From positions 20,855,839 to 20,919,838 of the forward strand of contig CM049316.1 of assembly GCA_026874595.1 (NCBI GenBank): DNA of 64,000 bases, written 5' to 3'. Under the pieces are notes generated by a model. The model was given only the letters and a program-made list of their open reading frames with translations, searched no databases and was not told where the DNA came from. The position numbers and the translations under genes were made by a program. Origin of the DNA: Sipunculus nudus. Taxonomy: Eukaryota; Annelida; Sipuncula; Golfingiida; Sipunculidae. Positions 25,831 to 57,762 of the stretch are shown here, in pieces. Every line of letters starts with the position of its first letter. Within the stretch, counting starts at the first letter, position 1.

Positions 25831-25841
25831 AAAGGTAAGAT
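25831..25841 (+). promoter_or_regulatory. candidate 5' splice site of TLR copy A leader exon
   Basis: AAAG|GTAAGATTG matches the donor consensus 712 bases before the ATG of copy A. The same donor word, preceded by similar TTCATTCTCG / CTCTGT sequence, precedes copy B at 32631. This suggests a non-coding first exon shared by the paralogues. It is an inference, with no transcript support. Confidence 0.35.
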
Positions 25842-26546: not shown

Positions 26547-28860
26547 ATGCGGAACATTATTGTGATCGTAGTTACTACTTTTTTAATAGGTGATATAATC
26601 TGCACTGTTACTCAGAGATATAAATGTTCAGCATGTGATTGCACAAGCAACGGTAACTCTATCACTGTATCTTGTGATGACAAGGGACTGACGGATATAC
26701 CAAACCTCTGTCAAGACAATGTGACGAAATTTATTCTCAACGATAACCAAATAACTCGAATTAAGGATTTTTCATTTGTAAAATGCTTTAATTAAGAGAC
26801 ATTATATTTGGGTGCGTGCGAAATCCGAACACTGGTTTAAAGAGCTTTTGAAGGACTGGTTCAGTTACGTTTTCTTGATCTCAGCTACAATAACATTGGT
26901 TCAGATGCTGAAACTTTTGGATGTTTTCAAACCACTGATAAATTTAGAAACTTTGGATATGTCTAACAACTTTCAACTGGGTCAAAAAAAATATCGCGTT
27001 TTGACAAATATGATGTCGTCTCTACCAAAGATACGGTTACTTTCGTTAACGTGGACAAATGTTGCATCGTCTAGTGTATTTTCCGATAATGATATCACGG
27101 TTACACTTCTAGAATCTATCAGGACGCCTTCTCTAAGGATACTGTATCTCAGTGGAAATAGGATCGCATATATTCCTAGATTTCTCACTATTTATACGCC
27201 AACTTTGGAAGAGCTTTATCTCAGCGCCAATCACCTCTATTTGTTTTCATTTCTTTTGGGCCTTGAGCGTCTCAGAACTTTAGATTTAATCTACCAAACA
27301 CCGAGCGTAATTACAAATCATATTCAAAGAAAGAAATCTTTTGATGAAAATCATACTCGGCTCAAAACTCCGAAGTATTTCTTAGGACAACATGGGGATT
27401 TTGAGATTACATTGGACTATATGGAAGTTGATAATACTAAGGAAGACGTAACTGAAACACATTACCATACCATTCCATGGCCTGCCAATCTTACTTATCT
27501 GAATGCTGCTGAAATTGCTTATTTTGGCATAATTAAAAGCTCTGTGCATTTCATTTTGTACAATAGAAAAAGTATACAAAATATAAACATAGTATTATCT
27601 TTTAAAAGTTTAATCGAGTTCTTGGGAAAACAGAGGTGTGTAATCCAGTGTCCGGTATTACCCTCGATTTATCAAACAACCAAATCCGGAATACTCCGAA
27701 AAATTCCTTGGGGCCAAAAGTGGCTTCAGCCATTGTTTCTTTAAATTTGGAAAACAACAATCGTGGAGGAATTATAACGGAAGACGGTGGACCTTTATAC
27801 CACTTTCACAATCTAAGAGACATCGATCTTACATCGAAAAACATCTTTCACATTTCGCCATTCGCTTTCAACCGTTCAAAAAAAACTACAATTGGAAAGT
27901 TTGATCCTGAGGAATAACTACTTGCATGACATTCCAACTGGCATAAACACATTGCGACATTTACATATTTTAGATCTTTCCAGAAATCACATTCAGTACC
28001 TAAAACGGAATGTGCTCTCACAAGTGACTAGTATAGTTAAAAGAGCCAAGGCAGGAGAGAAGAATTTTCGCTTGGATTTGAGTGGCAATCCTTTAGAATG
28101 TTCATGTTGTGCTTTACTTTTCCTAAGATGGTTGTCCACTATTCGACATAATCTGAAAAATATCGAGACTACAACTTGTAGTCTGCAAGGAACACATATT
28201 TCTATTTCTAAATTGCATTCAGAAATTTTGCCTCATCTAGAGAAACATTGCATCAGTTTCCAGTGGTTGTTTGTTATCGCAGGTGTTCTTGTTTGCATTG
28301 CCGTTTGTCTGACAGTATCAGTGATTGCATATAGGCACAGATGGGATATCAAGTATTTCTGCATTCGTCTTAAAATCCGGCGCGAATTGTACGCTGAATT
28401 AACCGAAGAAGACATAGCCTTTCACTATGATGCCTTCGTAGCCTACAGCGAGAGGGATTTTTCTTGGGTAGAGGATCACCTTATCCCAAATCTTGAAGAA
28501 GGAGAGCCGGCTCTTCGTCTGTGTGCCCATCACAGAGATTTTGAAATAGGGTGGCCGATTAAAGAAAATATTCTTCGAAGTATATCTTCGAGCCTCATAA
28601 CGATAATTGTGGTATCACGGCATTTATGAGAAGTGGTTGGTGCAAATTTGAAATGCACATGGCTCGGATCCCTCACGATTGACAGGGGGGCCGGAATTAT
28701 TATTTTGCTCGAGGAACTTCCAGTGGCTGAAATGCCGCGAGCACTGTTACCTATTATGAGACGTCACACTTATCTCAGGTGGCCAGGGGAGGGTATGATG
28801 GACAATGTTCTAGTATTTTGGTCACGTGTGCGGTCCGCTCTTGGTCAGCACACAAAATAA
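26547..28860 (+). pseudogene. Toll-like receptor pseudogene, copy A
   Basis: Full-length Toll-like receptor homology, heavily broken. ATG 26547 starts a signal peptide and an LRRNT (CSACDCTSNG...C). TAA codons follow at 26793 and 26838, then frameshifts near 26920, 27640, 27885, 28625 and 28680. Between them are leucine-rich repeats, an LRRCT (NPLECSC...C...C), one TM helix (ending VSVIAYRHRW) and a TIR domain with YDAFVAY, RDFEIG and a terminal FW box. The frame shift at 28625 is loss of one T in CATTTT at the HF-R-SGW segment. It is closest to copy B in domain sequence and order and lies in tandem with it. The number of lesions makes it a true pseudogene and not just sequencing error. In a working receptor the LRRs would bind ligand and TIR would signal through MyD88-type adaptors. 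Confidence 0.88.
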
Positions 28861-29781
28861 TATTTATCCATTAGAGTGTTTGATTCGGTCCCTGCAACAT
28901 ACACACGGATATATGTGTGTGTATGTCTGTGTGATTGTGTGTATGTGTGAAATGCTCTGCATATGGTCTTTTGTATGTATATTTCAAACTCTTTGTGAAT
29001 TGTGTTTTTAAATTTATTGTGGATCACTATAAGATATACCATTTTATAGACCTTGATTCAAATTTCAAAAGAAATGCTTCATCATGTTTGAAAGAGCCTG
29101 CTGAATTTTTACTTATCTCGTCTCACAGTAAAGTTGCATGGATCTGAATTTATATAAAAGAGTTGTGTACATTTGCAGGCATATTCTTTTTAATACTTAC
29201 AGGAAACGTAAAGGCGTAGATGGGTGCCGATTATAGAGATGCTGTGTGTCGCGATATAAACAAAATTGTTAGTAAATGTATTAGATAATAAAGGCATGTG
29301 CTATTCTTTCAACCAGACGTATTGGGCATTTCGGTCCTGGTCAATCGAATACGTAAAGGTATTTAACATAAACATCTGGACACCTGTGATACCAACACTA
29401 AGCATACCATTGGACTGCAGGAAAATATAAATCAATTCTGGTAGCAGACTTTAGATGAAGCTGTAAGATATCTCATAGGTCAGGTATTTTATTGAATATT
29501 GTCGAATTTATAGCCTGATGTTGTTATTACCGCAAATGCTGCTGATTTAAGCTGGAAACATCCGTGTTGGTTTGCCATCCCGGAATATGTGACACACATG
29601 TTGAAATATATATTTGACCGTGCATCGTGCTTATGCTTGGGAAATATTGCTCTAATTGTAGTACTATCACACTGCTTTTTATAAAAAAAATAAACACATT
29701 TTGTTATAAATCTCTACTCTCTTTGTGTCAACATTTGTGAATATAAAGAGTGCCCCAAACAAAGGCTTTGAATGTCTCTCA

Positions 29782-29839
<58 letters not shown>

Positions 29840-31315
29840 ATAAGCTACACCGATTTCCAGTACAGTTTGTGAACTATGTGGACGTATAGTGGAATCTAGA
29901 TGGTCGAGTTGATCAATTCATCCTTGCCAGGCCGTTCAAAATAGGAGCAGGCAGGATGTAGAGCCTTTTCACTACACTCCTTCTCTAGACCTTTGGCCTT
30001 TCGATAGCTGGGATGCATTTCTCTCAGTGCCAATGCTGTTTATCCGATGGGCATGGTACTTTAACGTGTTTCACAATGGTAGTACCACGCCTAACCTTTG
30101 AATGAAAATATTCTGCTTTTTTTCACAGGTCCTGTAGTTTTTTGTCGGCGCCTAGAGTTATCGATGAAATGCAGGACACCTAGGGTCAACCTTGTTCGGG
30201 CATTTGAAGGAAAAAGTTTCAAATTACTTTAGTGTGTATTCAAATAAAAACCGCCTTGTAATGTAGTATACATTATTTAGCCGGCTGTACAGTCTTTTCT
30301 GTTTATATACGTTTGTGCATGAAAAAGAAAATGAGTTTTAGTATATGTTAACGTGCAATAAAACTGAACTCCTTGTATCAGTAGCAACTTTATTGATGTG
30401 TATAAGTAATGACCATATTTTGGAGCAAAGGGGGTCTGAGGAAGGTAAAAACAAGTGAAGCACTTAAACGTAACACACAGCGCCTCAAATGGTAACCAAC
30501 AAAGCAGAAAATAAAGCCCTGAATAGTACAGTTAATGTACTTAAGCCTGAAAGCAATGCAATAAATCAGCAGATTACGTTATTTAAGGAATCATTATTTG
30601 ACTCAGAAAGACACAGTCGAGAATAAAACTTGTCCTCTTTGACATCCCAGTACAATAAATGATGACTGTTACGTGTCGCTAACATACCATCCGGGGTCAC
30701 CACGCAACAAACTCAAATAAAGAAAGACTCACAAAGTGACTGATAATATTTGTAATATGTACAATAATAGAAATTGTTCGTTCCAGTTGCATAAAAAAGA
30801 CTGTTCCAAGTGAGACACTCATTTTTAAATCAAACAGGAAACTTAGCGTCAAGGTGTCTCCAATCAGCGAAACACATCGTCCAAATGAAACACCTGGGGC
30901 TGCGGAGGAGCTGTTCACAAAACACAATACGTTTAACCGGTATCAGTCCATTCGAAACGAATTAAAGGATAACATCCTGAACCAGGCCTGGCAAGAAATC
31001 ATAACAGTTCGGAATATAAGTGTTGCCCACACGAGATCGGGCGCATGGTGTTTTTATACGAGAAACGTTCGGGTTCAGTACAAGATTGTTGGCTGAATAA
31101 TAAAAGTTCGGGTTCATCATCTGTGTTACAACTGTTGATATGTTGTTTTCTGCGGTTGTTCCGCTTCACTGGTCTCCGCTCGATCATACTCTTGTGTCGT
31201 TCTGGCACTGGCTGAAAAGCTTTATTGTAGGCTCCCTGCCTTAGTCTACGGAGTCACAGTGACACCAGCACATTACTGTAAACATATTGTGGCAAAATAA
31301 GGCCTACAAACGATT
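28861..31315. other. intergenic, no gene seen
   Basis: AT-rich with a (TA)n tract at 29784-29837. A short frame at 30854-31096 has no domain. The word GTTCGGGTTCA occurs twice, at about 31066 and 31108, without further structure. Confidence 0.5.
29784..29837. repeat. (TA)n microsatellite
   Basis: A TA run of about 54 bases. Confidence 0.95.
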
Positions 31316-31990
31316 TTGAAATCCACGATGCACTGGAATCTATTGAACATGCTCATAGAACAGGAAAAACAAAATATGGGGGTCATAGATATATCAAAGA
31401 CATATAGATACTCCAGAAAATGCAATACAAAATGGTTATCACAGTTCAAGATATCGATTTGTGCCAGGGATAATTCGAGACATATATTAACACAATATCA
31501 GCAGAGCTAGGTATTTTTCTATATTACATTGTAAATCACAAGTTGACCCAGCTAAGTATTTTTCTATATTATATTGTAAATCACAAGTGACCTTGAATCC
31601 ATTTCCGTACAATTTAAATATTGTTAATTTACGTAAATGTACTTTTGCAAAGAGGACGAGGAAACTTTGGTTCGTTTATTTTGGGAATGTTCATTCAAAG
31701 CCTTGCTATGGTCAAATATTCAGACAAACTCAGATTGTTAAAATATGAGCTAAACACGATAGGGAGAAGAGGTGTCCAAGGTTTGTAGCTCTTTTATGAC
31801 TTATTTAACCCTAATATGTGGGTAATTTTGAGGTAATTGGCATTTGCTAAGAATAAAGTAAAATTCCTGAACATTGGGAAACTCCATTACCCAGTTGTAA
31901 TTATGTGTATCTTTCTTAATTTATCGTCGTCCAATATAACCCATCCTGTGTCTGGAGACATATGAATAGAAAACAAAAAACAAGAACCTG
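31316..31990 (+). mobile_element. LINE 3' end remnant (reverse-transcriptase zinc-binding region)
   Basis: At about 31640-31735 the plus strand reads YFCKEDEETLVRLFWECSF and then LLWSNIQT. This is the C-x(n)-E-TL-HLF-x-C-x(n)-W pattern of the zinc-binding region at the C-terminus of non-LTR retrotransposon polymerases. The frame upstream at 31316-31510 (CNTKWLSQFKISI) fits the segment that usually precedes it. Stops and a short internal tandem duplication show it is dead. The family is not assigned. Confidence 0.55.
31503..31598. repeat. ~47 bp tandem duplication
   Basis: AGCTAGGTATTTTTCTATAT... through TGTAAATCACAAGTTGACC is followed directly by a near-identical copy ending CACAAGTGACC. It lies inside the LINE remnant. 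Confidence 0.85.
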
Positions 31991-31999
31991 TAATAGAAT

Positions 32000-33190
32000 G
32001 ACTATTTACCACCTGCTTAAATTCTAGGAGGACAAGTATTCCATTTATTTAAAAAATCAGTTAAAGTTAAGTCTTTGGTAGGAGACAGGACCGGTTGTGC
32101 TTGTGGTTTAAATCTTGCGTGTGTTCTAATTTATAAACCAATTTTCATTAAGCTACCAAGTAACCTCCTATTCATTTCCTATCAATTATACAGTCAAATC
32201 AATTATCCTTAATTAACATTCACCTATCTTAATTAAAAACAAAGGAATCGTGCATAATTTCTCTTTCCAATTATAAAGCAACCTAATTTCTACATATTAT
32301 CTATATAAATCATATAAATTAACAATTTAATACATTGGTCCTTGATATACAATGCAGAAGAACTGCTGTTACAAACAATGGTGTAAAAAAATTAGTATTT
32401 GATGTGAAATCTAATCTTGCAAAAACCACTGGCGGTTATGTACAATGCCACTTTCTTGCGATATCGGTACCCATTGGCTATATACTAATTACATAAAAAC
32501 TACATTAGCATCCGATACACAATGCAGATCACATGACGCAACACGAAAAGTTTTTTATATAACTTAGCTGCAGGAGTGACAAAACATTCATTCCTCGAAG
32601 CACACACAAACGCTTTAAAGCTCTGTTAAGGTAAGATGTTACAGACTTACATAATATCTGGCAATGACAAATGTGCCATACACGTGCTATTCCTGTATGT
32701 ATGCATGATTATTACATGAACTCTCATAGAGAAGGAGCTGTAAATCATTTGTAAAGTGTTAAAACACATATGGAGTATGGATTTTAAACATGTCGTTAAA
32801 ACATATTCCAGATACCAAAAGAAACAGACAAGCAATTAATAGCAAGGGTTACACCTTTCATGACCAAATATGGTATTTTATCAATGTGAATAGTTCCTTA
32901 TACCTACTATCTATAACTTCAGATATGATTTATTTAATATCAATAGCCAGAAGGAAAACACTTCATCTTATAAATTTAGGTATGATTAATGTGTGGACAA
33001 ATATGCATTTATATACTCATATATGCATATTTAATCTATTTTCTGTTAACAGAGGATGTCACATGATACTTTACAGGAAATTCAGCTGATCACTCTATTA
33101 ATCGCATATGGTATAACGTGAGCGATAACCTTCGAAACAGGAACCAAATAGCGAGAACAACACAAATACCATAATTGAAATACACGTAAA
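32000..33190 (+). promoter_or_regulatory. 5' region of TLR copy B with candidate TATA box and leader exon
   Basis: TTATATAAC at 32555-32563 could be a TATA box. A donor AAG|GTAAGATG follows at 32631, and a pyrimidine-rich acceptor TTTTCTGTTAACAG ends at about 33052, 140 bases before the ATG. This would give a short non-coding first exon of about 45 bases and an intron of about 420 bases. The donor and some exon words match the region upstream of copy A. No coding frame is supported here. Confidence 0.35.
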
Positions 33191-33191
33191 A

Positions 33192-35548
33192 ATGTGGAAA
33201 ATTATGATGATATTGACTGCTTTTACGGTTGCCCTGATCAGAACTAGGGCTCAATCAATTAACTGCTTAAAATGTAATTGCACAAGCGATGGCAGCTCCA
33301 TCATTGTAAACTGTAATTCTAAGGGACTAATGGATATAACTGACCTCTGCCAGGATAATGTGACGATGTTTTTACTCTCTGGAAACCAAATAGGTCAAAT
33401 TAAGAACTTCTCATTTGTTAAATGCACAAATGTAGAGGTATTAAATTTGCAAAAGTCTCAAATTTATTTTCTGGAGGATAGATCTCTCGAGGGCCTAGCT
33501 CGTTTGCGTCTCCTTTATCTTAACTACAATTACCTTGGGTCGGGTGACGAATTGATAATGTCGAACGTCTTTACACCGCTCGAGAATTTAGAAGATTTAG
33601 ACATGTCTTACAATCAACACCTGGGCGAGAATGAATATAAGATTTTAACTTCGATGCTGCTCACTTTGCCAAAAAGAAGATTAAGATCCTTAATGTTAAC
33701 ACATATTGCATCGTCGTGTGTCTTTTCAAAACATGACATTACGCTTAAACTCCTTGAATCTCTGAAGACGCCATTTCTTAGGATACTTGATCTCAGTGGA
33801 TATAGGATTGCATCCTTCTCTCGCGTTCTTGCTGTTTATACTCCACACCTCGAAGAACTTTATCTCAGGCACAACCACCTCTTTTTATATTTTTTTCTTC
33901 TAGGTCTTGAACATCTTAGGGTTTTAGATATAAGTTTCCAAACGACAACTGCACTTACAAATTATAACAAAAAGGGAAAATCTGGCAAGGAAAACGTTTC
34001 TTGGCCACCTAATCGGAGAGATATCATAGAATAACATTATTGCCATCCAAAGTTTCAGAGAAAATGGAACAAGAAGGGAACCGTTCTTGACAATACAGAA
34101 GCCTTTCCCTTAAAGTTTTTTTCTATTTTATTCCGTGGCCTAATAATCTCACAATTTTAAGTGCTGTTGAAACCGTTGACCTCGGCATAGTAATGCCGAT
34201 TGCCGGGTTATTTTTATTAAACCAACCCAATATGAATAATGTGTTTATAAACTTGTCGTTAAACCGATTGATTGATTTCATGGGCAAAATAGAGATATGT
34301 AATCCAGCTTCTGGCGTCCATTTAAATCTGTCAAATAACAAAATAAGAAATATTCCGATATATTCCTTGGGACCAAAGGCAATTTCTGCCATTGTTTTCC
34401 TATATTTGGGACACAGTAATCTTGGAGAAATGATAGCAAAAAACGGTGGTCGTCTATCCTACTTTCCAAATCTGGAAGTCATTGATCTCACTTCAAACAA
34501 CATATTTCATATTTCGCCGAGTGCTTTTAACGGCTCAAATGAGCTCCATTTAGAAAGCCTGGTCCTGAGAAACAATTACTTGGTTGATATTCCAAATAAC
34601 ATTAACACTTTGAAGAACCTGACAAGTTTGGACTTGTCGAACAACCGCATCCTGTACCTGAAACGGAATGTGTTATCACAACTAACAATTATAATCAAAA
34701 GAGCCAAGGGAAAGGGAAGGAGGTTTAGCCTGGACTTGAGTGGCAATCCTCTTGAATGTTCATGTGCTGCTTTGCATTTACTAAGATGGCTGTACATATT
34801 TCGAAATAATCTCCAAAATGTTCAGAAGACTTTTTGTGGACTTCATGGAAAACAGACACCTTTCTCTAAATTACAAACGGATATTTTGCCTCATCTTGAA
34901 AAACATTGTATTAGTTTACAATGGATGATTGTTATCGCAGGTATTCTTGTCAGCATAGTAGTTTGTTTGACGATATCTGTGATTGTGTATCGGCACAGAT
35001 GGGACATCAAGTATTTCTGCATACGTCTAAAGATTCAGCGAGAACTCTACGCGGAATTATTCGAAGAAGACGGCGCCTTTCAATATGACGCCTTTGTTGC
35101 CTTCAATGAGAGAGATTTTTCCTGGGTCGACGATCGTCTTATTCCAAACCTTGAAGAAGGAGAGCCTCAATTTCGGCTGTGTGTTCACCACAGAGATTTC
35201 GAAATTGGATGGCCGATTGAAGAAAATATTCTTCGCAGTATATCGACCAGTCGCAAAACCATAATTGTGCTATCACAGCATTTTGTTCGCAGTGGTTGGT
35301 GTAAATTTGAAATGCACATGGCTCGGATTCACATGATGGAAAGGGATGTAGATAAACTTATTGTTGTTTTGCTTGAGGAAATTACGATCGCTGACATGCC
35401 GCGCACTCTAGTGGCCATTCTGAGACGACATACATATCTCGTTTGGCCAGGGGAAGATATGATTGACAAAGTTCCTGCATTTTGGTCACTTCTGCGGTCT
35501 GCTCTGGACGAGACACCCGGATATATTCACGGAACACATGATCTTTGA
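33192..35548 (+). pseudogene. Toll-like receptor, copy B (one stop and one frameshift in ectodomain)
   Basis: ATG 33192 begins a signal peptide (MWKIMMILTAFTVALI), LRRNT cysteines (C25, C28, C30, C41, C53) and leucine-rich repeats, and runs 280 codons to TAA 34032-34034. Coding-like sequence continues in the same frame after the stop, then moves by one base near 34115-34125 beside a T7 run. It then stays open to 35548 through PWPNNLTIL, further LRRs, LRRCT (NPLECSC), a TM helix (IVIAGILVSIVVCL) and a complete TIR domain (YDAFVAF, RDFEIG, FW box). The TIR part is the best preserved of the three copies. The broken stretch falls in the least conserved part of the ectodomain. It may be a recent pseudogene, an assembly error at the homopolymer, or a gene with a small unrecognised intron; no good GT-AG pair is seen across the break. 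Confidence 0.8.
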
Positions 35549-36262
35549 TTATTTTAAAAGTAGTACCGTCTTATTTTGCAAGTGTAATATAATCTGTGAA
35601 ACCGCGTTTACCCATCGTTTGTATCGTCGTATACCCAATTTTGGAGTGATATAGCTCATGCTTGATCAAAGTAGTCAGTCGGTTAATTTCCAGTTTATCC
35701 ATGTCTTATAACGTTCCTATTGTAATTGTAATTGATTTGAATGCCGATGAATATCGTGTGTCTCATTTCTTTTATTTTTCTTACCTGTGAACTCGAGTTC
35801 GACAAAAAATGACATATCGGCATCGTACATTCTTTGCGGGTATAAGCTTACGTTCATATGGCGTCATCAATATGCTAACAAGGAAAATTCATTTTTAAAT
35901 TTTAAAATCCTTTGACCGTTTGACGGGAAAAATTATTAAGTTTACTTGTTGTATTTGCATGAACAAACGCCCTGGCGTTAATTTTTTTCAGACCTTGCTT
36001 TATCCGACGTCTGAACAAGTCCGGCTTCTATTTATTTTTAAAAATGTTTGGCTCGTCCGACAAAACAAAAAAAAAGAACACGTACATTCACTACTTGGTC
36101 GTAGGGACACAATTGAAAACATCGGCGGTACACGAAATGTGTTTAGGTAATTTAAGATGCCATAGGGATATGGGACACGCACATTCTTCACAATACGCGC
36201 CGTTATAAGAACTTACGGAATTTTACGGCCATTTTTTTCACATCAGGTGCAGTTGGTAACAT

Positions 36263-36314
36263 TTATATATATATATATATATATAAATATATACATATAT
36301 ATACGATATATATT
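36263..36314. repeat. (TA)n microsatellite, interrupted
   Basis: TA-rich run with AAATATATACATATATATACG interruptions. Confidence 0.85.
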
Positions 36315-36936
36315 CAAAATGCTCTAGGCCAGTATCGAGATGACGTTTCCCCAACATGTCTGGACCCAAAGCAGACAATACCCGCAAGAAAATGATCAAA
36401 CTCCTCTCCCATGTTTGGTTAAACATAACCATTGAAACTAACCTGACCTACACAAATTTTTTAGACAATTTCTTAACAATTGACCTCCAAAACGACATTT
36501 TCTACCCTTACAGAAAACCAAACAATGATCCGCTCTATATCCAAGCGCAATCCAATTTTAAAACCTAACATTCATACAATATTCAACGTGCCCGCTCATC
36601 CACCCCCGCGAGGATCCGCTAGACATACTTACATGATCAGGTAGTTGCTCTCTCACCCCATGGTGAGTTTGGCGAGTCGAGTCCACTTGGTATGAGTATA
36701 GTATATTTGCCTTTTTATATTGTATATTTGCTATTTGCCTTTTATATTGTGTATTTTACATAGTATATGTGTATTTTATATCATATGTGTATACTACTGA
36801 AATGTTCACTGTACCCAGGACCCAGCTCTAAAAATCAGCTTACTATGCTAAATGGGGATCCTGGTGAAATATCTTTGTATAAAATAATAAACATTAAAAC
36901 AACAACACACCTCTTTGCCCTCTTGTATTTCTTCAG

Positions 36937-36941
<5 letters not shown>

Positions 36942-37000
<59 letters not shown>
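36942..37000. repeat. (TA)n microsatellite
   Basis: About 59 bases of TA with one G interruption. Confidence 0.95.
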
Positions 37001-37971
37001 CATTTCCATCAAATATCCAGGATATCTTCATGTAAAAACCCATTATTCCATAACTATAAATGGAATATAAATTTCACATCGTGTTTAAACGATTAAAAAG
37101 GAATAATTAAATGATATGATCATCATTATTGTAATACCTTTCCTGTTGCACGACTCTATTTCTTAGTCCTTAGTGAAGTGTAAGTATGCATGCATAATAG
37201 AAGTTATTTCTATATCTTTTATTATATTTTAATATCCGTGTGACTTTCTAATGTTCAAGCTTTATATACGGAGAAAGTGATGAATAATGACGGGTGTTAT
37301 ATACACAGAGGAGTCTACATTTTTTGAGGTAAAGGAGCTACCTTTAATATAGCAATCTACCAGCGGAAACCATTATTTTAACGTATGCAATATATCATAA
37401 TTATTTCAACACAAATAAATATGTAGAGATATATGAATGGTACTTTTCGTTCTTGGTTCAAACTATTCGCTAAAAGTGAGCGGAACTAATATTCCAAAAT
37501 ACCCGCATCAATGCTGGATTCAAAACCAGCGGTTGACTCCGTGCAGACCTGAACTATGTCTATAGTCTCTGGTAAAGTTAGAAACCAGTGGTCATCATGG
37601 TGTTGCGTCCTATCATGTAGTTAAGCGTTCTTTCCATCAAACGATATTATCATCATTTACATCTTTAATCAGCCTAAGGCCTTCAGACTTAACAAATCAA
37701 TAAAGGAAGCTTTTTAATTTAAAACATGTAATATACCAGAGTACCAGTAACTTTTCCTCAGCAAGTAGCTGTATAACCAGCCATTACACTGCTTAATACA
37801 TTCGCTGCCCAGCCAAATATTCCCGCGGTGCCAGGGCCTACAACAGTCTCGGGGAGGTCCGGGTGAGTCAAGGTGTGAAATGCTGATAACGAGGGTGTGA
37901 ATTCCCCCTGGTCCAAGGGCCACAAAATCTGCCTGAGCTGTTCTGCACAGGAGGATGTCATAACCATGTTC

Positions 37972-37993
37972 GGCCTAATTAGCTAATTAGGCC
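37972..37993. other. 22 bp perfect palindrome with two TAATTA cores
   Basis: The 22-base stretch is its own reverse complement. It consists of GGCCTAATTAG and its mirror CTAATTAGGCC overlapping at AGCT. TAATTA is a homeodomain-type core, so the site holds two inverted homeodomain-like sites. It is surrounded by non-coding DNA. Confidence 0.85.
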
Positions 37994-38057
37994 TACAGCC
38001 TGTAAAGACTTCAAAGGAAACAAGCGCAAACAAACACAGATACGCGCGCTCACGTGC

Positions 38058-38061
<4 letters not shown>

Positions 38062-38111
<50 letters not shown>
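38062..38111. repeat. (TA)n microsatellite
   Basis: TA run of about 50 bases followed by CGATAGAGAGAGA. Confidence 0.95.
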
Positions 38112-38115
<4 letters not shown>

Positions 38116-41100
38116 AGAGAGAGAATATGTTCACACCAGGACCGGGAAAGTCCAGCGGCTCACGCAATAGCGGCTCCTGTACAGGCTCGGATCGGCCTTT
38201 GATATATTATTGGAAATAATAGATTGAGATTTATAAAACGTCACAGTTATAATCATGTATGAACATCTAATTTCTAATGTCACGTTATCGATCGAGGTAG
38301 AACAAGCGATGGTTTTTGTCTCGTTATGCTTTATGGTTGATATAAACAAACGTGGAAAGATGGCACAGGGGTCATGTAGGAGGTCAACAATGCGCGACTG
38401 GAAACCGCACACGTTGAATTCACTCTTTACTTTTCATTTTCCCTTCATTTTACAAACTTATATTTTTACTGCAAAAAATACTTTTTGTGCCTTTCATTAG
38501 GAACTAACTGATTCTACCAATCAATATAATTCTAAAAATTGTATTATCTTATATTACAATCAGTCATAGAGGTGATAAACCGAGGCGATAACATTTTGCA
38601 ATTGACCTCGTCATTGTCACCGTCACAAGAAGCCGGGAATTATACGAAAATTGCGAGTAATCAAAGTGTAACCTAATATGATTAACTCTACGGCTTATGA
38701 TACAATACTATATTATGAATTGTCTGAAAGTTATATGTCGGGTCTGCCTGTGGTGAATTCTAAAGTACGGTTGGGATTGCCGGAATACTAAAGGGCCAAC
38801 ATGTTCCGCAAGTGATTGTCCGAGTTAGGCAGCGAAAGTGTTAAATATTAAGAGCCGCCTAATCACAAATGACAGTCATGGGATGCACAGTACTGTGCAC
38901 TATTTGCATGTCAGACTCTGTGTTTAATACAAACAAACAAGATGATATTCAGTGTAGAATGTCAATGCTTTGTGAACACATCTGTTGCAAACTTTACTTT
39001 CACGGAGATGCGGTGCGATTTTCTGAAAGAGTGGTGCATGGTGTTATCTGTTCCGTTGCTTTATTGACTAGACGGCCAAGGTTAGATGCTGATTGTGGCG
39101 GTTTACAAGAACTCCAGGTCACAGAGTACCAGATTTGTGAGGCGTTTTAGACAAGGTAAATAATTAGAGGAGCCTTCTTAAAGAGCAGTGTCAGTATGGT
39201 AAAAACATGTAGGACCATATGCACAGAGCGCAAAATAAAATACATTTTACAAGGTCTTAAGGAACATTTGTGCTGAGAAAGAGTAACACATCGAAACAAT
39301 TGAAGCAGTGATTTATTTTTACTATAACCTTTAGATCAGAACCATGTAAAGATTCCATAGTATAATAACAAATAAAATTTTTCAGATACAACAATCTTAT
39401 GGACTATTTATCTCGTTCTTGTAATGAATGACGAGTGATTTTGATGTATCTCCTTCTACTTCACGTCTTTCAGTCTTTCATTAACGCAGAACTCAGGTGT
39501 TGTCTTACATGTCTAATCCAGATTAGCGTCATGATTCGATGCAACTTTAGGAATGGGTAAGCATGTCAACGGGCATCTACGTTGTATACAAACCTAAACG
39601 GGTCCTACGGGGATAACACACAATAACCTTAACTTGTAACACAATAATGCACATTATAGGTGACACATAATACATAAGCACATGTACATACAAGGGTACG
39701 ACACAACTTGAAATCAAGGGCGCCTAAATAGGTTATTAGGCTCACATGTTAGATTCTCTGTTGCCATGGCAAAGGTTATGTATTTTATACACTTTAACAA
39801 TACATGTAATCAAACTACCAAACTTAAAGATTGCAGAATCGATAAGCTTTGGTATGTATCATATGGGTGCACATATCCAACTTGAAAATTCACCCTTTCT
39901 CACTCATAATTTCGGAATAGTTCTGATGAGAGACCTTAACGTTTTTATATTTATTTTCCAAAATTACCTCAATTGAATGAAAACTTCAAATCAAACTACG
40001 TGCACTTTGAAATAAATACAACTTTAATCCATCATACCACTCATTTGTGAAAATGAATGAACATGGTCTAGTGTCAATATCCATAAGATTTCAAAAACCT
40101 TCCGTATTCCTCCATTTACTACCATAATAAAAATTATTGAAACACAAAACCGTGAATAGGATCGAACATGAAATCAGAAGTCCTTTGAGACAGAGCCTAA
40201 ATTAAACCATTCCTTGCTTCATGATCCATGTGCCTTGCTCTTCTTCTATCTTATCTGATCATTTCCAAAGTTTTATCTGTACTTCCGTATATGAATATCC
40301 GTAAAAACATGTTTTCTTTTAATTATTAAATCTTCAAGGAGGTGCTTAGTAGTTTTTTTTCTAGAGAAGCAATCATAGAAGAAATTTTAAAGATCCTGTT
40401 AGTTTACTTCCATGATGACAACAATCAAAGGTTTGATCTGCTACTTACAATATACTAGCATCCTGATGCAGAAGGCAAGATAAAAAAAGTATTTGTAGGT
40501 GAGCAAATATATCATTATTACTGTCATACAGGAACTGCACTCTTTGAACTAACATTATGGGTAACTATTTACTCGAAAAATTCGAATTTTGCTTGGAAAA
40601 TCAGTAATTTGTTTTGACGCACTTGCCTAGATATGTTGACTGTATTGATTAATGAAATTATTAAATAATTTAGGAATTCATTAAACATTATGTTATATAG
40701 GACTGCAGTAACTGTAACTATCGGGGACACAATGGAGAACATCAGTAGCCTAAGCTGTGTTTCCTTCTTTCAAATAGTTACATCACCCTCGGAAACATTA
40801 TTATTGAAGAGGAGCAAAACGGAAATTTATTTGGCATTTTAGCTGCTAAATATAACGGAGCAGCCATAACAGAGGAGCTGTCCGATAAAACTTCAAACTG
40901 CTGCGAAAAATATCAGAAGCCCCACTTTGACATGCCACAATTTGTCATTAATACTACAATAAATGGGAGCCTTTACTAAACATCTGTACAAAAGGCCATA
41001 CTTTTAATGTTTCATAAATAAACGAACCAAATTATAAAATTAATTATCTCTTACGATTTCTATGTTTGTTTTTCAAAGACAGAACCACATTCCCGCGGAT

Positions 41101-45126: not shown

Positions 45127-45166
<40 letters not shown>

Positions 45167-46311: not shown

Positions 46312-46440
46312 GATTCATATAACATAAATCGAATCATAACGTTCACTTACTACGCCTAACCAAAAATACCTTATAGAGATAGATCGATAGACACGACCTG
46401 GACAACCCCCATGCATCAGAATATTTTCAAGTACATATAG

Positions 46441-46900
46441 ATGACAGCACAAGCAACATAACAGGCACAGCATCTCCAACATACCTTTCCCTATAGAGGG
46501 CAGCACAAGCAACACAACCAACACAAGACCTCAGCTCCAATATTAGTATGCAAGTAATGTTACGATTGCAGCACAAAAAAAAAACAATACTAGCACAGGG
46601 TTCTAGCTCCATGATCATTACACCAGTGACCTAGAGATGGCAACACAAGCAACACAAAACCCTCTATCAGACTACTCACAAGTAGAGAACAACAAGAGCA
46701 ACACAACCAGCGCAACGTCACCTCCATCAGACCATTCCCTATAGAGGGCAGCACAAGCAACACAGCATCTCACCCATCAGACTATTCTCCCGTAGAGGGC
46801 GACACAAGCAACACAACATCCCATTCATCAGACCATATACCTGTAGTTGGTAGCCCGAGAAACATTATCATTTCACCAGTGACCTAGAGATTGCAACACA
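46441..46900. repeat. ~58 bp minisatellite
   Basis: The word GGCAGCACAAGCAACACAAC recurs with variation about every 55-60 bp, together with CATCAGACCATTCCCTATAGA. About seven units, some with internal A-rich insertions. It lies directly upstream of the LINE ORF1 remnant on that element's strand. Confidence 0.75.
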
Positions 46901-47293
46901 ACTACTGCCATTCTCTATTTAATCAGTTATATCTTGTCCGACTTCGCACTTTGATGGCCATAGATGGCCTGATAACAAAACACATTTACATGCATAATTC
47001 ACCAGAACATGATTTCTAGGTATATGATATTCATATAACTGAATACAACATGAATTACATTTGATAATAATGAATAAAAAAGTTTCAAGTATTTTTTTTT
47101 ATTTCATTAATTCAAAGCTAGTTGAAAATGAACAAAATATCACACTAATCTGTCAATCATGAGTGACCAAAACATTTTTATATTATTTATATAATTCATA
47201 GAATCAATGTGGGGAATATGATAAAACATGCAAAAGCTTTCATTATTCCCATAATTTCAGGCAAGATAAAAATGTACATTAATATCACACTCA

Positions 47294-47455
47294 CCTGTCT
47301 GTGAAGACCATGTAGGCTAGCAGCAGGCTGACAGCTGTCTTTGCCATGAAGGTTTTGCAGGTGTTGCTTCCTCCCACATTGACCTCATGTTGGCACACGT
47401 TGAAAGGTTTCCATCGTCATTCCAGAGTTCCGTGCCATCACAGCAGCACCTGCGG
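47294..47455 (-). other. exon-like patch with consensus splice donor
   Basis: On the minus strand a GC-richer block ends ACAGACAG|GTGAGTGTG, a strong donor. One frame reads EVNVGGSNTCKTFMAKTAV and then SLLLAYMVFTD, a hydrophobic stretch. Another reads cysteine-rich sequence for the first half. No single frame spans the block, which suggests a decayed or transposon-derived exon. I cannot name it. Confidence 0.25.
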
Positions 47456-49246
47456 CGTAACTATGCAAATTTTATGATAAACTAATACTAACTGATTTAA
47501 AAACCAAAACAGCTGAACACTTGCACATTCCTGTTCATTGATATGATGATACTATTCATCTTTGCGAAAATACTCAAATTCCGGTATAAAAAACTATAAT
47601 GTATTTTTTTTATTAAAATCTAAAAACAAATTATTTGTTTTGAATAGATGATAAATCGAAATTTCACTTATATTTCTAATATTAAAGTATTAGAAATAGC
47701 AAATGAGTGGCAATGTCAACACTGAATTATGATAATTGTCTTACCACACATAAAAACACCAGACATGAATGTGTCACACTATGGCACATGTTGACGTGTC
47801 AGGTGAACCAGCTTTTTTATCTTCCTTCCTATTTGGTTGCCATCCATCACAACTTTTTTTGGGCTGGAACTACTTCTCTTTCGCTGTCAAGATACAGATC
47901 ACTGTAAATACAACATGACAGAGTCTGACACATTTATGGCGTTCACAAGCAGCACTACAGATGACAATGTATTTTTTAGAATTCTGATGGAATAATATTA
48001 TCATGTGGCTATATATTTTGCCGTTTGTAAAGTGTGTAGCTCAACAACGTCACCTACATTGCTTTAGCGATCCAATTGAGATAAGTAACCGGGATACATT
48101 ATGATTGTTGGAATTTTAAGGACAAAAGCTTCACACATAACTTGTATAACCAATCACACATATTGACTGATTAACAAATAAGTATCACCAGGAGGGGCTT
48201 TGGTGCAGTGAAAAAACTACCGGCGGGCTTGCCAAACAGGTCAATTTTGACAGTTGCAAAATAGTACATATATCTAACCATATTGTGGGTAATACTGATA
48301 GTGGTAATCTAAATAGATATTTAGTATATACTGAGTACATATACTTATGAGCGTTTACACATTATTTCTTTAGAGATGGGCATTTTAAACGTCCTTTTAT
48401 TTTTTAGGCCTCCTTGCCTCGCACATGCCGGTGCTAATGTTTCAATCAGGCCTTATGTGATAACAAAAACAATTTAAGACACAATGTTTGAGGTTTTGAT
48501 GCCACCCTTGACAAAGTAAAGCCTTCTTCTTTACTGGCCGATTCTATGGGGTGTGGGTTCTACATTGAAAGGAATGTCAATATCATAATGAGTGTTTTTC
48601 AAACCACTAATAATCTTATATACTGTTTGCATTTTAAGAAACAACTTGGTAACTTATATTTATTTTTATTTTTTATACATATATAATACTTAATTCACTG
48701 ATATATGGACATAGATTAAAGTTTAAAAAGGAACTGCTCAAGTGATACTCAATCAGCAACTTCTGAAATAACCTGGTTACTGGAAAGTCTATCAGTACCG
48801 TTTGGACATAAAAATTATTTATAATTATATCGTAAAAAGTATTAAAGGATAAAAGTGTAAAATCTCACCTTGTATAATATTTTATTTTTCTCTTCAATGT
48901 TCAGGGTCAAATCCCTTTCCCATATGTTTGCAGCCTCGTCTGCGCCTTCGAGTTTTTCCTTCTCAAGTTCATTTTTGTTGTTCCCGAAGGTAAAAGGTAT
49001 GAACATCTCTCTCAATATGCATTTCAATGTGTTACATGTATAACATTTCTTAATATGAAAATATGAGTAAATCTGAACATTTAATCAAACTCGCATGGAA
49101 ACTGCTCGAAGAGGTCGCACACAGCAATGTTAGAACAATCCTTTTAATTATAGTCACTTACAGCTAAGTTGATTTAAGGTATAGTATATTAAATTCTTCT
49201 GAGATCCCCATTAGTCATTGCATTTAATATATAAATATTGCATTTT

Positions 49247-49296
49247 AATATATATATATATTTTATATATATATATTTATATATATATATATATAA
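49247..49296. repeat. (TA)n tract, interrupted
   Basis: TA runs with TTTT and TTT interruptions. Confidence 0.85.
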
Positions 49297-50219
49297 ATTC
49301 TTAATAACCAGTCATTAAATGAACATTAAAAATAAAATAATTTTCTTAACTGATTTTCACTGGCTGATTTTCCAACTGTTGTAGAATTCGGACTACGACA
49401 CCATTGTCAACAGAGGACAGTGACTTAGCTATTCTATTGCATATTAAGGAGTTTAACCAGATGATTATTATTATTGTACATCAATATGGAGTATCATGTT
49501 CAGATGCCTACATGAGAACTTAGTTTAGAGAGCCCAGGTGTCTCATTTGATGTTAATTTCATTAAATTTTTTATTCCGTGGGAATCGATGTTCATGTCTA
49601 GACGGTTCCTATAGCAACAATGTTTATTGTAGACCTAAACGGAAACGCACCTGCATATTTCCTTTATCTCTTAGTTAGCTCTCTGGAGGCGTTTCCAATT
49701 TAATATTCATGCATATAATGACAAGCCGTCTAATAATGTGAGATGATTGGCCAGAAGACGGTCAGAACGTGTGAAGTCAACAGGCGTATACAAGCGGTGG
49801 ATGCTGGACAAATCTTAAGAATCGCCTAGGTCAGCGCGCCAGTTGTGTGTAGTGTGACGGTTGTCTGTGGTTCAGAGGCGGTTCGTGTTTATCAGTGTCT
49901 GATCAGCTAAATCGATGTTCCAGAGCGTAAAACGTCAATGTCTGGGGACGGCCACGTGGATACATTTCTAACGGACCTTGGAGTGTATTTTGTAATTACC
50001 GAAGGACTAGTAATCCCGCGATGTGTGTCTGACATGAGTGAGTCCGGTAACAGGCCAGTACAATAAACACGCAAAACGAGAGTTGTAATAGATATTGTCA
50101 TGCGGAGGCATGTGTGTGGAACGCCTCTCCAGAGAAAGTGTATATTTAACATATTTTGTTTTGTTTACTAATGACTTATTCGTCTTTTGGATAGAATGCA
50201 TGTTTCACAGACAAAGCAT

Positions 50220-51575
50220 GTTAACAATCTCTAAAGAGATGTGCAATATTGTGTATAGACAAAAGATGCCAATTTTGTAAGAGAAGAACGATAAAGGTGT
50301 CGGTGTCTGTCAAAATTGAATGTATAATATATCATATGTGAATCTTTGAAGAATTTTCAATGAAGTAAAAGCATATATTATACCAAAAGTATTTATATTA
50401 TTAGTCAGGTAACAAGCACTTGCTACTTCGCAGGACTGTTTTGCTACAGCGCACATTGCCCAATGCGATCGCACGTGAATATGGCCCATGGCACTTGCTA
50501 CAGCGCACTTCTATGTGTTACGTTGCGACTATTAATTGCTTCCGCGGATATTGCTTGTTACTGGCCTATCTGGACGACCTCTGGATACAAACACTTGCAC
50601 TGTTTCGTTAGTAGCAAAATTTTTGATCGCAATAGATAGCCTCAATGGGATAGTTCTGTGTGCTACTTTGCGACACGTAATTACTACCGTTCATATTCCT
50701 TGTTGCTGGCCTAGCTGGGCGACCTTTGGCTACAAAGACTTGCATTACGTCAATAGTAGCAGGATTTGCGATCGTAAATTCATAGCTCCAATTGGTAGCA
50801 GGTAACAAGCCCTTGCTACCGCGCGGTTCTGATTTGCTACCTCTCACATTGCCCAATGGGAGCGCACATGATATATGGCCCATGGCATTTGCTTCCGCGC
50901 AGATCTGTTTGCTACTCTGCGACATTTAATTACTACAGCGCATGTTTCGTGTCGCTGGTCTATCTTGGCGACCTCTGGCTACAAAGACTTGCACCAATAG
51001 TAGCTAAATTTGCGATTGCAATTGAGAGCAACCATGGGATACTTGCTACCGCGCAGGCCTGATTTGCTACCCCGCATATTGCGCAGTGCAATCGCAGCTT
51101 AATATGGCCCATGGCATTTGCTACGGCGCAGATCTATTTGCTACTCTGCGATAGCTAATTGCTACCGCGCATATTGCTTCGACTGGTCCTGTCCAAGCGA
51201 CCTCTGGCAGCAAAGGCTTGCACTACGTCAATAGGAGCAGAATTTGTGATCATAAAATCAAACCCCCAATTATTAGCAGGTGACAGCCACTTGCTATCGC
51301 GCAGGTCTGATTTCCTACAGCGCAATTTTCGCATATCAGCCGGTCTGTGCCTGAAGGTAGCAAGACCAGTGGCTGTTCAGTGCGTGATGTGGCGATCTAT
51401 GGGCATGGGTAGCAAATGCACCTGTGCGACTGCTATATGCTACCAAGCAGTTTGCCCACATCAGCCGCTGAGCGTATAACAGTAGCAAGACCAGATGATG
51501 CTAATAGCGCGTTGTGCCAGGCTATACTGAAAGGGTAACTAAGGATCCCACAGATGAGCCTAGAAACCCGACAGT
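50220..51575 (+). mobile_element. repeat-bearing element, copy 2
   Basis: Second, direct-orientation copy of the element at 19030-20370. Its unique 5' part (GTGCAATATTGTGTATAGAC ... GTAACAAGCACTTGCTAC) aligns with 19050-19240. The tandem core has unit starts near 50419, 50811, 51044 and 51289. The 3' part (CCGGTCTGTGCCTG) is longer here than in copy 1, with an extra tail to about 51575. Copies are diverged, so the insertions are old. No coding capacity. Confidence 0.75.
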
Positions 51576-51630
51576 TCCCCGCCCATATGGCAGTGAGAAC
51601 CCCCCCCCCCCCCCAACAATAAAAAAAAAG

Positions 51631-52990
51631 GACAAAAGAGCTCCGATATCTGAATAACTAATGCATTGATCGGCTTGATCCTTAATTATAATATCCTATT
51701 GAAACCCGCCACAAGTGTCCATTTTCAACTTCTTATACCGGAAAAATAAACACATTGACCCGAAAATTTTATTTCATAATTAAACAAAGTGTGCCATGTA
51801 GATATCATATGCAAAATATCTAAGAAATTCCATTGGTAGAAAAAAAATAATCGCGTTTCCCCTTAAAAGACCATACATCTTTATACGTTTCAGTACTATT
51901 GGCCACCATTGCGTTTCCTTCCCCCGCATGGTTTTTATAAATAAGCAATCCTCTAAACTCCACCTATCCCTATTTTCTTAGAACTTTTGCCTGAAGATTA
52001 CTGGGTTGTGATTCGTTTATAAAATAACATCAATGGTAAATGCATGACATCAAAATACCGCAAAGACAATATATGCAACAATATGTCTCCACTTCCATTC
52101 GCCCTGTTAACTTGTGGAATGTTAATAGTAATAAATCTCATAAATGTAAATGGTAATTAATTTTTTTCCGAAAAGGAGGCGATTACTCGATCTATTACAA
52201 CGTATGGACAATGGATTGCTCTTGAGAAAATCTCAATGCGAGGGGCGTTACAGGCAAACGTGCCGAGGTCCCCTTGTAAAATGAATTACAATCCCAGTAT
52301 CCCACAAGAGGACACAAGAGCTCCGATATCTGAATAACTAATGCATTGATCGGCTTGATCCTTAATTATAATATCCTATTGAAACCCGCCACAAGTGTCC
52401 ATTTTCAACTTCTTATACCGGAAAAATAAACACATTGACCCGAAATTTTTATTTCATAATTAAACAAAGTGTGCCATGTAGATATCATATGCAAAATATC
52501 TAAGAAATTCCATTGGTAGAAAAAAAATAATCGCGTTTCCCCTTAAAAGACCATACATCTTTATACGTTTCAGTACTATTGGCCACCATTGCGTTTCCTT
52601 CCCCCGCATGGTTTTTATAAATAAGCAATCCTCTAAACTCCACCTATCCCTATTTTCTTAGAACTTTTGCCTGAAGATTACTGGGTTGTGATTCGTTTAT
52701 AAAATAACATCAATGGTAAATGCATGACATCAAAATACCGCAAAGACAATATATGCAACAATATGTCTCCACTTCCATTCGCCCTGTTAACTTGTGGAAT
52801 GTTAATAGTAATAAATCTCTGAAATGTAAATGGTAATTAATTTTTTTCCGAAAAGGAGGCGATTACTCGATCTATTACAACGTATGGACAATGGATTGCT
52901 CTTGAGAAAATCTCAATGCGAGGGGCGTTACAGGCAAACGTGTCGAGGTCCCCTTGTAAAATGAATTACAATCCCAGTATCCCACAAGAG
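51631..52990. repeat. 680 bp near-identical tandem duplication
   Basis: 51631-52310 and 52311-52990 align end to end with only about five differences that I can see: A/C at 51634, AAAATTT/AAATTTT near 51765, CATAAATG/CTGAAATG near 52139 and C/T near 52264. It starts at GACAAAAGAGCTCC and ends at CCCACAAGAG. It is preceded by a C14 tract and an A9 tract. It contains no gene. The low divergence implies a recent event or an assembly duplication. Confidence 0.95.
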
Positions 52991-54123
52991 AGGAATTCCT
53001 TATCTGGTGTGACTGAATAGAAATATGCCGTGGAGATTTCCATTAGGAACATCTTGTAAGAACGGTCATACCAACGACTGTGTCACGCGTGCCGTGTGAA
53101 CAAACTACCAAAAAATAGGAAAGACAAGTCTGATAAGACATAGCCGTTATGCTTGGTGTGGAAGCATTCACTGTTGTGGGATACTCAGAAAAGTCAAAAT
53201 ATCCTGTGATCTAGATGTGTTGGCTGCCCAACAGTTTGATTTGAGGTATTCGACTGAAACCATGGCGACATAGGTCTATACCAGAGCCATAAAGCAAATA
53301 TCACTTTACTTCTAAATAAACAAAAATGTGTTTCAAATTGTGTTGCCCATGTATTAGGTTCGAATTACCCCTGACAACCTATGTTACCTAGGTCACATGC
53401 ACCAATGACGAACAGTCAAGCCATAATCAGTGCCATAATGTTATCACTTCGGGTGCAACTGTTGATATACTCCACACTGGCACTTGAGACTCACCAGCAA
53501 AACGCTTGTTATGTAAAAGTATTTATTATATAGAATAAATATTAGGCTTGGATTTCTTTACGCATCTCCTAATGTACAAAAATATATCATCAATATACTT
53601 ATATACATACAAAATAAACATTAATATTAAGTTGTAAATGAGATAATGTTCTTTCCAAGAAAAGCCTGATTGTAGTCTCATTGAGCCATTGTCCACCGTT
53701 TCAGAAATGTATAACAAAATATGTTACACTTTACGATAATAACCTTTATTCATGAGAGTTACTTGTCTTCCTGTTACTTTCCGAATTGTTGAAATTAACA
53801 TTAAAATACGATATCTATAAATATGTCTTACTTTTCGCTTACTATTACGTTGCACAAAGCACTAACTAGCATGTTAGGTGCTTATGTTACGCACGTTTAA
53901 TAAATTCTGAGGCTAAATTTTATCGTGGAATCTGTTTATTTTGGGGAGAGTGATCCGTAGATAGAAAAATATCCGCCTATTGATCAAAATGTAGATCTTT
54001 TTAGGTAAGAAATTATTTATTACATTTATTATTCAGTAATCTAAATTAAATTTATATATACATTAATGGATGCAAACATAAAAACTTGCTGGATATATAC
54101 ATAAATACACATTTATATACACG

Positions 54124-54173
<50 letters not shown>

Positions 54174-54378
54174 GTGTGTGAGCATGTGCGTATAGTAGCA
54201 AAGAAGTGGCAATTTAATACTCCAACATGTTGCACGGGGCAGCCATGTAAATTATCCACCGTGATTGAGACATAATTAAAGTGCTCTGTCTACCTGTTTA
54301 TGTGACTTACTTACATAAACTTATCGAAGCACTAATACATATATATATAAACTGTGTCTTACATTTTCATTCATAACA
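52991..54378. other. intergenic, no gene seen
   Basis: AT-rich, with (TA)n(TG)n at 54127-54182. This is the 3' flank of TLR copy C. Confidence 0.5.
54127..54182. repeat. (TA)n(TG)n microsatellite
   Basis: About 47 bases of TA followed by TGTGTGTG. Confidence 0.9.
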
Positions 54379-56714
54379 TCAAATATTATTTTCCGTATTA
54401 AAGTCCCCTTGCCTTTGCGAAAGCGCAGACCGAAGACGTGACCAAAACACAGGGACATCGTCAATCATATCTTCTCCTGGCCACACGAGGTAAGTGTGAC
54501 GCCTCAAAATGGTAGCGACGGTGTGCGGCATATCTGTGGTCGGGATTTCCTCGAGCAATACAACAATCACTTTATCTACTCCTCTCTCCATTATGTGGAT
54601 TCGAGCCATTTGCATTTCAAATTTACACCAACCCGACGAATAAAATGCCGTGATAACACAATAATGGTTTTGCGGCTCTTTGAGATACTTCTAAGGATAT
54701 TCTCTTCAATTGGCCAACCAATTTCAAAGTCTCTGTGGTGAAAACATAGTCTAAATGGAGTATCCCCTCCTTCTAGATTTGCAACCAGTTCATTATCCAC
54801 CCAAGCCAAGTCTCTCTCGCTGTAGGCTACGAAAGCATCATATTGATAAGCGCAATCTTCCTCGAACAGTTCAGCGTAAAGTTCCCGCCTTATTTTCAAA
54901 CGGAGGCAGAAATATTTGATGTCCCATCGGTGACGATAAGTAATCACAGATAATGACAAACATACAGAAAGGATAATAAGACAGCTTGCGGTAACATACA
55001 ACCATTGGAAGCTGATGCAATGTTTTTCCAGATGCGGTAAAATATCATTTGGTAATTGCTCTAAAGGTACATACTTTCCACGAAAACTGCACGTCAATTG
55101 CAATAATATAAGATTATGCAGGATTCTATTGATATATTTTAGAAATTTTAAAGAATTACATGAACATTCCAAAGGGTTACCCACTAGACAGAAGGAAAAA
55201 TTCTTTCCTGCTCTGTCTACTACTTTATTTATTTGTGATACAACATCAGTTTGCAAGTACACAATTCTGTTGTTGGAAAGATCCAGTAGTGTCAGAGCGT
55301 TCATAATGTTGATGGGAGCTGAGAAGCCAAGCAAAAAGTTATTTTTCAGAATAAGACTCTCCAAATGCAAAGAGTTTCTTTCGTTGAAGAATGTAGGTGA
55401 TATATAGTAGATGTTGTTATAAGAGATATCTAAGTATATCAAATTGATGAAGTTTGGTAATGGATCATGACATTTTGCAATCATTTTACCAAGTTTATTG
55501 TGACCCAAGTTGACCAAAACTATAGCTGCAGCAAAGTTTCTGCCGAAGAACTGCTTTGAAATGTTCTGTAAATTGTTGTGTGAGATGTCAAATGATTTAC
55601 CGACGGCTGGGTATTGCAGTTCTATAACACTATCAAACAACAGCATTAACTGATTGTACGAGAATTTAATAAACACTTTTACCATCTGCTCTCCATTTAA
55701 TAATAAGTATATAATCTTTTTAAAAGGCAACATGAAATCATTAACAAAAACTGGGGCATTGATATATGAGAGATTTTTAGGCCAAAGAATAGGAAAAATG
55801 TTTCTTGCTTCTTTACCACTTAATTGATTCTGCTTCCACGTTATATCAGTACCAAAAGTAATCGGATGACTCTGGTTCGGAGATAACTCACGCCGATGTA
55901 AACTATGACTGCATAATTTACTTGTGACTTCGTCTTTCTCTCCAACTGGGCATTGGTGGTTTATTACTAAACATGTTAATCGGTGTAAACCCAAGAGGAA
56001 ATAAAAGGAAAATAATTCATTAACGTCAAGGTAAAGTTCCTCAATATTTGGTATAAAATTAGCTAATATCCCTTGTATTTCTGTTATTCCGTTGTCACTG
56101 AGATCAAGATGAGTTAATGATGGTGTCCTGAAGGATTCTAATAATTCAATAGGGACAACATTACTAGGACACTCCATGTGAAGCGCAACATGTCTCAGTT
56201 TAAGTTCTCTTAAATTCGATTTTGGAAGGGAGCGCAATAAAGATATTAAAACGCGGTATTTGTTGTTCCCAGGTTTTACATTGGAGGACAAATCTAGTGA
56301 TTCTAAACATGTTAGTGGTTTAAAGACATGTGATCCCTTAAGCTGTAGGGGAACTAATCCTAGATTATTGCTATTGAGTTTGAGGGTTCGTAAATTTGAA
56401 AGTCCCTCAAAAGCTTTCTCATACAAAAGTCGGATACCTGATGCCACAAGGTCTAACATGACCAGGTTGACACACCTTACAAAGGCATAACTCCTTATTA
56501 GGGTGATGCGGTTATGATACAGAGAAAACCTGGTTACATGTTCCTTGCAAAGATTTGGTACGTCTGTTAGATTTTGGCGGATGCAGTTCACGAATATGGA
56601 GCCTCCTTCAAATATGCAAGTACAAGGAGTGCATTTGAACTTCGCTTCAGCATGGCAAATCACAAACAAGAATAAAAGAAAAAGAAAAATTGTGCTCACA
56701 GCACTACACTTCAT
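54379..56714 (-). pseudogene. Toll-like receptor, copy C (single frameshift in TIR domain)
   Basis: ATG at 56712-56714 is chosen because it opens a strong signal peptide (MKCSAVSTIFLFLLFLFVIC); the longer frame upstream has no ATG there. In order: LRRNT (C28, C31, C33, C44, C56), roughly a dozen leucine-rich repeats, LRRCT (C517, C519, C542, C566), TM helix about 570-592 and a TIR domain from about 625 (YDAFVAY) with RDFEIG at 661-666. One base is missing at about 54631-54636 compared with copy B (TTCG at the R-SGW segment). The frame then runs into a short out-of-frame tail ending near 54591, while the correct TIR C-terminus (MARIHIMERGVDK ... FW box) continues in another frame to TGA 54379-54381. 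Apart from this the 700-codon frame is clean. It could be a very young pseudogene, a truncated receptor or a sequencing/assembly error. Confidence 0.88.

Positions 56715-57721: not shown

Positions 57722-57762
<41 letters not shown>

Follow-up and report, generated by a model that had tools for sequence, protein, structure and literature searches.

Toll-like receptor clusters in other invertebrates

The Pacific oyster has 83 Toll-like receptor (TLR) genes, nine of them with frameshifts, according to the part of the account available to us (PMC4346834). For Biomphalaria glabrata 27 complete TLRs, 9 partial ones and 20 pseudogenes are quoted in the accessible portion of PMC10075465, and in Tridacna maxima, as far as the excerpt of PMC11700175 goes, TLR families are expanded and some are contracted. 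Broken TLR copies have precedents in other animals whose receptor families are large.

The locus described here lies in a 64,000-nucleotide stretch of the Sipunculus nudus genome, hereafter the window (C11:20855839-20919838, in an assembly of 1.43 Gb and 153 contigs). It resembles the oyster loci in being part of a large tandem invertebrate TLR cluster with frameshifted members, and the B. glabrata family in the large proportion of broken TLRs accompanying complete ones. Unlike in the available portions of both accounts (PMC4346834, PMC10075465), the lesions can be compared here across near-identical sister segments, which gives their relative age; a narrow literature search, covering titles and the openings of abstracts, found no published comparison of TLR losses across sister segments. 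The window is very probably one unit of a recent segmental duplication in which the TLR copies A and B were dead beforehand and copy C was lost afterwards, in a birth-and-death process. The locus offers a clear illustration of birth-and-death among clustered invertebrate TLRs, with one gene kept, two dead before the segment was repeated and one broken separately three times; by means of the near-identical units the losses can be put in relative order, and assembly quality has an internal control.

TLR copies of the window

Three TLR copies were recognized in the window:
26547-28856, + strand: copy A, TLR pseudogene (LRRs, TIR) with two stops and five frameshifting indels
33192-35548, + strand: copy B, TLR pseudogene with one stop and one net one-base frameshift
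~54381-56708, - strand: copy C, TLR gene open apart from one frameshift inside the TIR domain

A preliminary description had reported three broken TLR copies, with many lesions in A, one stop and one frameshift in B and a one-base frameshift in C; reading of the frames and Pfam matches to LRR and TIR bear out their order, coordinates and lesion counts. In a six-frame reading no open frame extends from a start through the TIR domain in any of the three. LRR_8/LRR_4 matches exceed the Pfam cut-off in pieces of A, B and C, as in the open relatives L023 and L015, and so do TIR matches, scoring 58.6 bits in B, 30.3 and 36.9 bits in the frameshift-split pieces of A and C, and 63.1 and 66.5 bits in L023 and L015, respectively. 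Hydrophobic stretches resembling a signal peptide and a membrane span were judged by eye in the translations. The solved structures scoring best with the open L023 are those of TLR3 (E = 5.6e-39), TLR7, TLR5 and TLR2; these vertebrate receptors likewise combine an LRR ectodomain with a TIR domain but are distant from the cluster genes, and the structure match assigns no TLR subfamily. When the window was searched by tblastn with two open relatives (E up to 1e-3), the only TLR pieces detected were A, B and C. Judged from their sequences, A, B and, least certainly, C can be considered ordinary duplicated (unprocessed) pseudogenes of the TLR family.

The repeated segment and the cluster

The TLR cluster spans 20.2-21.8 Mb of C11, a contig of 79 Mb, and the segment containing the window was found three times in a span of 0.6 Mb on this contig. 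The matches in window coordinates, to which no strand is assigned, are as follows:
22998-39526: repeated segment, A/B part, 99.1-99.4% identical to C11:20342500-20359000 (L029, L009; upstream unit 1)
23268-39232: repeated segment, A/B part, 97.8-98.4% identical to C11:20503000-20519500 (L019/L010; unit 2)
50739-59551: repeated segment, copy C with its surroundings, 98.2-99.1% identity with L014 and L016
63542-64000: right window edge, where the repeated segment continues, 98.3% identical to L015

In the DNA alignment the order A, B, C, C' is identical in all three units, the C' copy of the window's unit (L018) starting about 2.7 kb past the window edge. Another TLR gene, D, is located about 66 kb before B in each of the two upstream units; a third D copy, at 20.604 Mb, precedes the window's B by about 284 kb and is assigned to the window's unit by order alone. 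At the place where a further B would be expected from this third D, a 9-kb stretch (L030) showed no match to the window or to two TLR proteins. At 21.25 Mb there is an inverted A-B pair, L023 and L022, with genes 95.4-95.6% and aligned pieces 89-95% identical. Relatives showing 95.4-99.6% identity with A, B and C lie on the same chromosome, and further copies, perhaps open ones, may exist elsewhere in the genome.

The distances between the units are mosaic. At A/B the window differs by 0.3-0.4% from unit 1 and by 1.3-2.3% from unit 2, with 1.5-1.6% between units 1 and 2; at C the corresponding distances are 0.6-0.8%, 0.8-0.9% and 0.7%. Unit-to-unit exchange and stepwise duplication would each produce such distances. 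The units could also be unmerged haplotypes instead of paralogs; in that case the losses of C would be alleles, but the lesions shared in A and B would be no less real. A 685-base tandem duplication (99.1%) is present in the window at 51626-52310 and 52306-52990, whereas L014 and L016 have the sequence once and align on either side of it. Some 300 bases found in L010 (995-1293), L022 and L023 are absent at window position 31733 and from L009, a difference common to the window and unit 1.

A genome search for TIR domains gave at least 150 matches, a lower bound since 150 of 299 candidates were scored. Within 20.2-21.8 Mb of C11, 25 TIR matches were listed, 12 of them in frames of at least 690 aa, a threshold of our choice, and 13 in shorter frames, most of these being taken as listed. 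As expected from frameshifts that split the TIR domain, window copies A and C are absent from this list. The 13 of 25 listed matches lying in frames below 690 aa suggest that gene counts based on TIR searches overstate the number of working receptors. Twenty-four TLR copies of the cluster were examined, in the window, in 20 stretches retrieved around listed TIR matches and in two additional stretches (L005 and L007 duplicate two of these copies and were not counted). In ten of them a frame beginning at an ATG runs for 769 aa or more: L011, L012, L013, L015, L020, L021, L023, L024, L025 and L027. The other 14 have no such frame: window A, B and C, L009, L010, L014, L016, L017, L018, L019, L022, L026, L028 and L029, of which L026 and L028 were classed by their short longest frame alone. 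On another contig, five equal-scoring TIR matches about 10-11 kb apart lie in C9:23324739-23369610, in frames of 656, 282, 643, 636 and 329 aa; this is possibly another recent array with broken members.

Lesions of A and B shared among the units

The relative of A in the inverted pair, L023, is open for 774 aa, shows 95.4% DNA identity and lies 0.37 Mb away. Compared with it, copy A has nonsense codons at 26793 and 26838, frameshifting indels at 26914, 27626, 27878, 28622 and 28670, and a 6-base in-frame loss at 28694. The lesions most informative across the units in A, and those of B, are:
26793-26795, + strand: nonsense codon of copy A, common to the window, L029 and L019, absent in L023
28669-28671, + strand: one-base insertion of copy A (28670), common to the window, L029 and L019 as compared with L023
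34032-34034, + strand: nonsense codon of copy B, common to the window, L009 and L010, with a sense codon at this place in L022
34105-34118, + strand: frameshift region of copy B (~34108-34117), identical in L009

The remaining lesions of window A are common to L029 only, and even these two copies differ in the length of the A run at 27878; L019 shows a 4-base insertion, and its end stop is gone. At the frameshift of B, L010 too lacks one base, with different local letters, and a common origin with the window's frameshift is likely. Both L009 and L010 bear additional lesions of their own. The closest relative of B, L022, is itself broken, having a separate stop and an insertion in an A run. L022 and the C' copy L017, which belong to two TLR families, each have a one-base insertion in the A5 run of the conserved HLEKHC stretch, at corresponding positions; recurrent slippage, conversion and homopolymer error are the alternatives.

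Since the same lesions occur in three separately placed copies, they are not independent errors. With the stop and the insertion of A and the stop of B present in 3/3 units, A and B were dead before the segment multiplied, already disabled in the common ancestor of the three units. Programmed frameshifting and introns were rejected for A and B, as the stops arose by substitution and relatives are single open frames (L023, 95%, for A; L024 and L027, ~78% over part, for B).

Separate lesions of C and C'

Copy C has a single lesion:
54630-54638, - strand: one-base frameshift of copy C (~54634), private to the window copy, with adjacent substitutions and outside a homopolymer

Its sister copy L016 is broken by one base and by a stop at codon 524, and L014 by 11 bases. 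The lesions are private in all three copies, so the test by shared descent says nothing for C. A stop at codon 752 was disregarded, as it results from a 6-base gap in the reference row; programmed frameshifting and introns were rejected on account of the sister copies without the window's lesion. Judged by eye, the products of L014 and L016 would stop short of the membrane span and that of window C would end inside the TIR domain; in all three copies most of the LRR ectodomain frame remains open.

C' is open in one of its three copies, L015 (783 aa), but this copy alone lacks 6 bases, in frame, in the TIR region, so that its working state is uncertain. In L018 one base is missing, and L017 has an early stop and an A-run insertion.

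TLR D as a control and the reality of the lesions

The D genes serve as a control of assembly quality within the same array. D is open in all three copies, with 2355 coding bases each, and has no coding indels in any of the three pairs, vs 7 per pair in ~6.5 kb of flank. Six of the nine distinct changed codons are silent (one-sided binomial p = 0.0045 vs a silent share of 0.215); by its sequence D appears constrained. The silent share of 0.215 used in this test and in those below was fixed from site counts with transition bias uncorrected, and the tests were chosen after the data had been seen.

Assembly or sequencing errors breaking otherwise working B and C genes, as entertained in the preliminary description, would account for the fact that the noncoding indels between the copies lie, in our reading, mostly in homopolymers or short-unit runs, as errors would, and they fit the weak constraint indicated by dN/dS for C. 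The frameshift of B does adjoin a T7 run, as had been pointed out, but is not clearly inside it, and all three separately placed copies of B carry the stop, which is a substitution. Error is excluded for those lesions of A and B that the units share; for C it is unlikely, as the frameshift lies outside a homopolymer with substitutions beside it and D in the same array is free of coding indels. As a whole this explanation is highly improbable, and judging from these comparisons the damage in A, B and C is almost certainly real. Some lesions in relatives (L022, L017 and the A run of A) sit in homopolymers and could be errors.

Divergence and selection

Between the three units, the divergence of A, B and C is about equal to that of their flanks or greater. 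For A the coding and flank substitutions are 9/2310 vs 22/5182 (0.39% vs 0.42%) between the window and L029, and 54/2308 vs 71/5659 (2.3% vs 1.3%) between the window and L019. The corresponding values for B are 8/2357 vs 22/6639 (0.34% vs 0.33%) with L009 and 42/2347 vs 97/6093 (1.8% vs 1.6%) with L010, and those for C are 18/2323 vs 38/6313 (0.77% vs 0.60%) with L014 and 22/2334 vs 51/6338 (0.94% vs 0.80%) with L016. In comparisons with the inverted pair the coding part lies below the flank, 99/2357 vs 194/3478 (4.2% vs 5.6%) for the B relative L022 and 85/2307 vs 191/4151 (3.7% vs 4.6%) for the A relative L023.

The comparison of dN/dS with relatives in the same genome, proposed in the preliminary description, gave values around 1 among the units for A (0.71-2.3) and B (0.98-1.9) and 0.30-0.50, from few changes, within the C trio; the A copies gave 0.56-0.80 against the open L023, and the B copies 0.82-1.05 against L022, itself broken. 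The silent share is 10/28 among the private changes of C (one stop change omitted; p = 0.06, not significant), 0/14 in the C' trio (stop omitted; p = 0.051) and 1/16 in A and B between the window and unit 1 only (p = 0.22); the excess of replacement changes that the last two values might suggest for recent copies was set aside. These values suggest that A and B drift, and that C is intermediate between D and A/B or died very recently.

Constraint on C may have ended only very recently, or an unsampled allele of C may still work. Segregation of C, and perhaps of C', as open and broken alleles, of which the assembly sampled broken ones, is in keeping with the few private lesions of C, the one open C' copy in three and the dN/dS of 0.3-0.5 in the C trio. 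It would have to be reconciled with three C copies out of three being broken, each differently, and with a coding divergence not below that of the flanks, and we regard it as a tentative and rather unlikely explanation.

Course of the losses

Loss by birth-and-death would proceed as follows. After A and B had been disabled in the ancestral segment and this had multiplied, both diverged no more slowly than the flanking sequence, and the copies gained lesions. C, by parsimony, would have been open when the segment multiplied and then been lost in each unit separately. The broken copies would make no working receptor, and the pattern would be that of birth-and-death under relaxed constraint after duplication. 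The graded decay of the preliminary description (A more than B, B more than C) is real, the sister copies placing the losses of A and B before the multiplication and, by parsimony, that of C after it. Its term TLR graveyard is overstated, with D open in all three copies, C' in one of three, and L023 in the same array or cluster: it is a mixed survival through ordinary birth-and-death rather than a uniform graveyard.

Near C, where copies are 0.6-0.8% apart, the flanks show 0.16-0.24 indels per substitution, from which about 1.5-1.7 indels per 2.3 kb per lineage were reckoned, a figure that is too high because flank indels lie mostly in repeats absent from the coding sequence. By this reckoning one or two lesions per C copy require no special cause. 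The separate knockout of C in every copy examined, with D kept in every copy examined, could also reflect selection against the C receptor, or its conversion to soluble or TIR-less decoys, which seems very unlikely. Retention of the truncated products as decoys, a soluble ectodomain from L014 and L016 and a product ending inside the TIR domain from the window copy, would agree with the ectodomain frame left mostly open by the three truncations. The private changes of C, however, show no evident difference upstream vs downstream of the lesions (few changes, by inspection) and the flank indel rates predict a similar number of lesions, which leaves such retention scarcely credible.

Other features of the window

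Positions 19016-20358 and 50199-51416 are two places of one diverged repeat family, and 6213-7937 is a separate tandem array. Two tandem open frames at 2862-3773 and 4256-5089, with 79% DNA identity, encode secreted-looking proteins, one of which has a fibronectin type III match below the cut-off.
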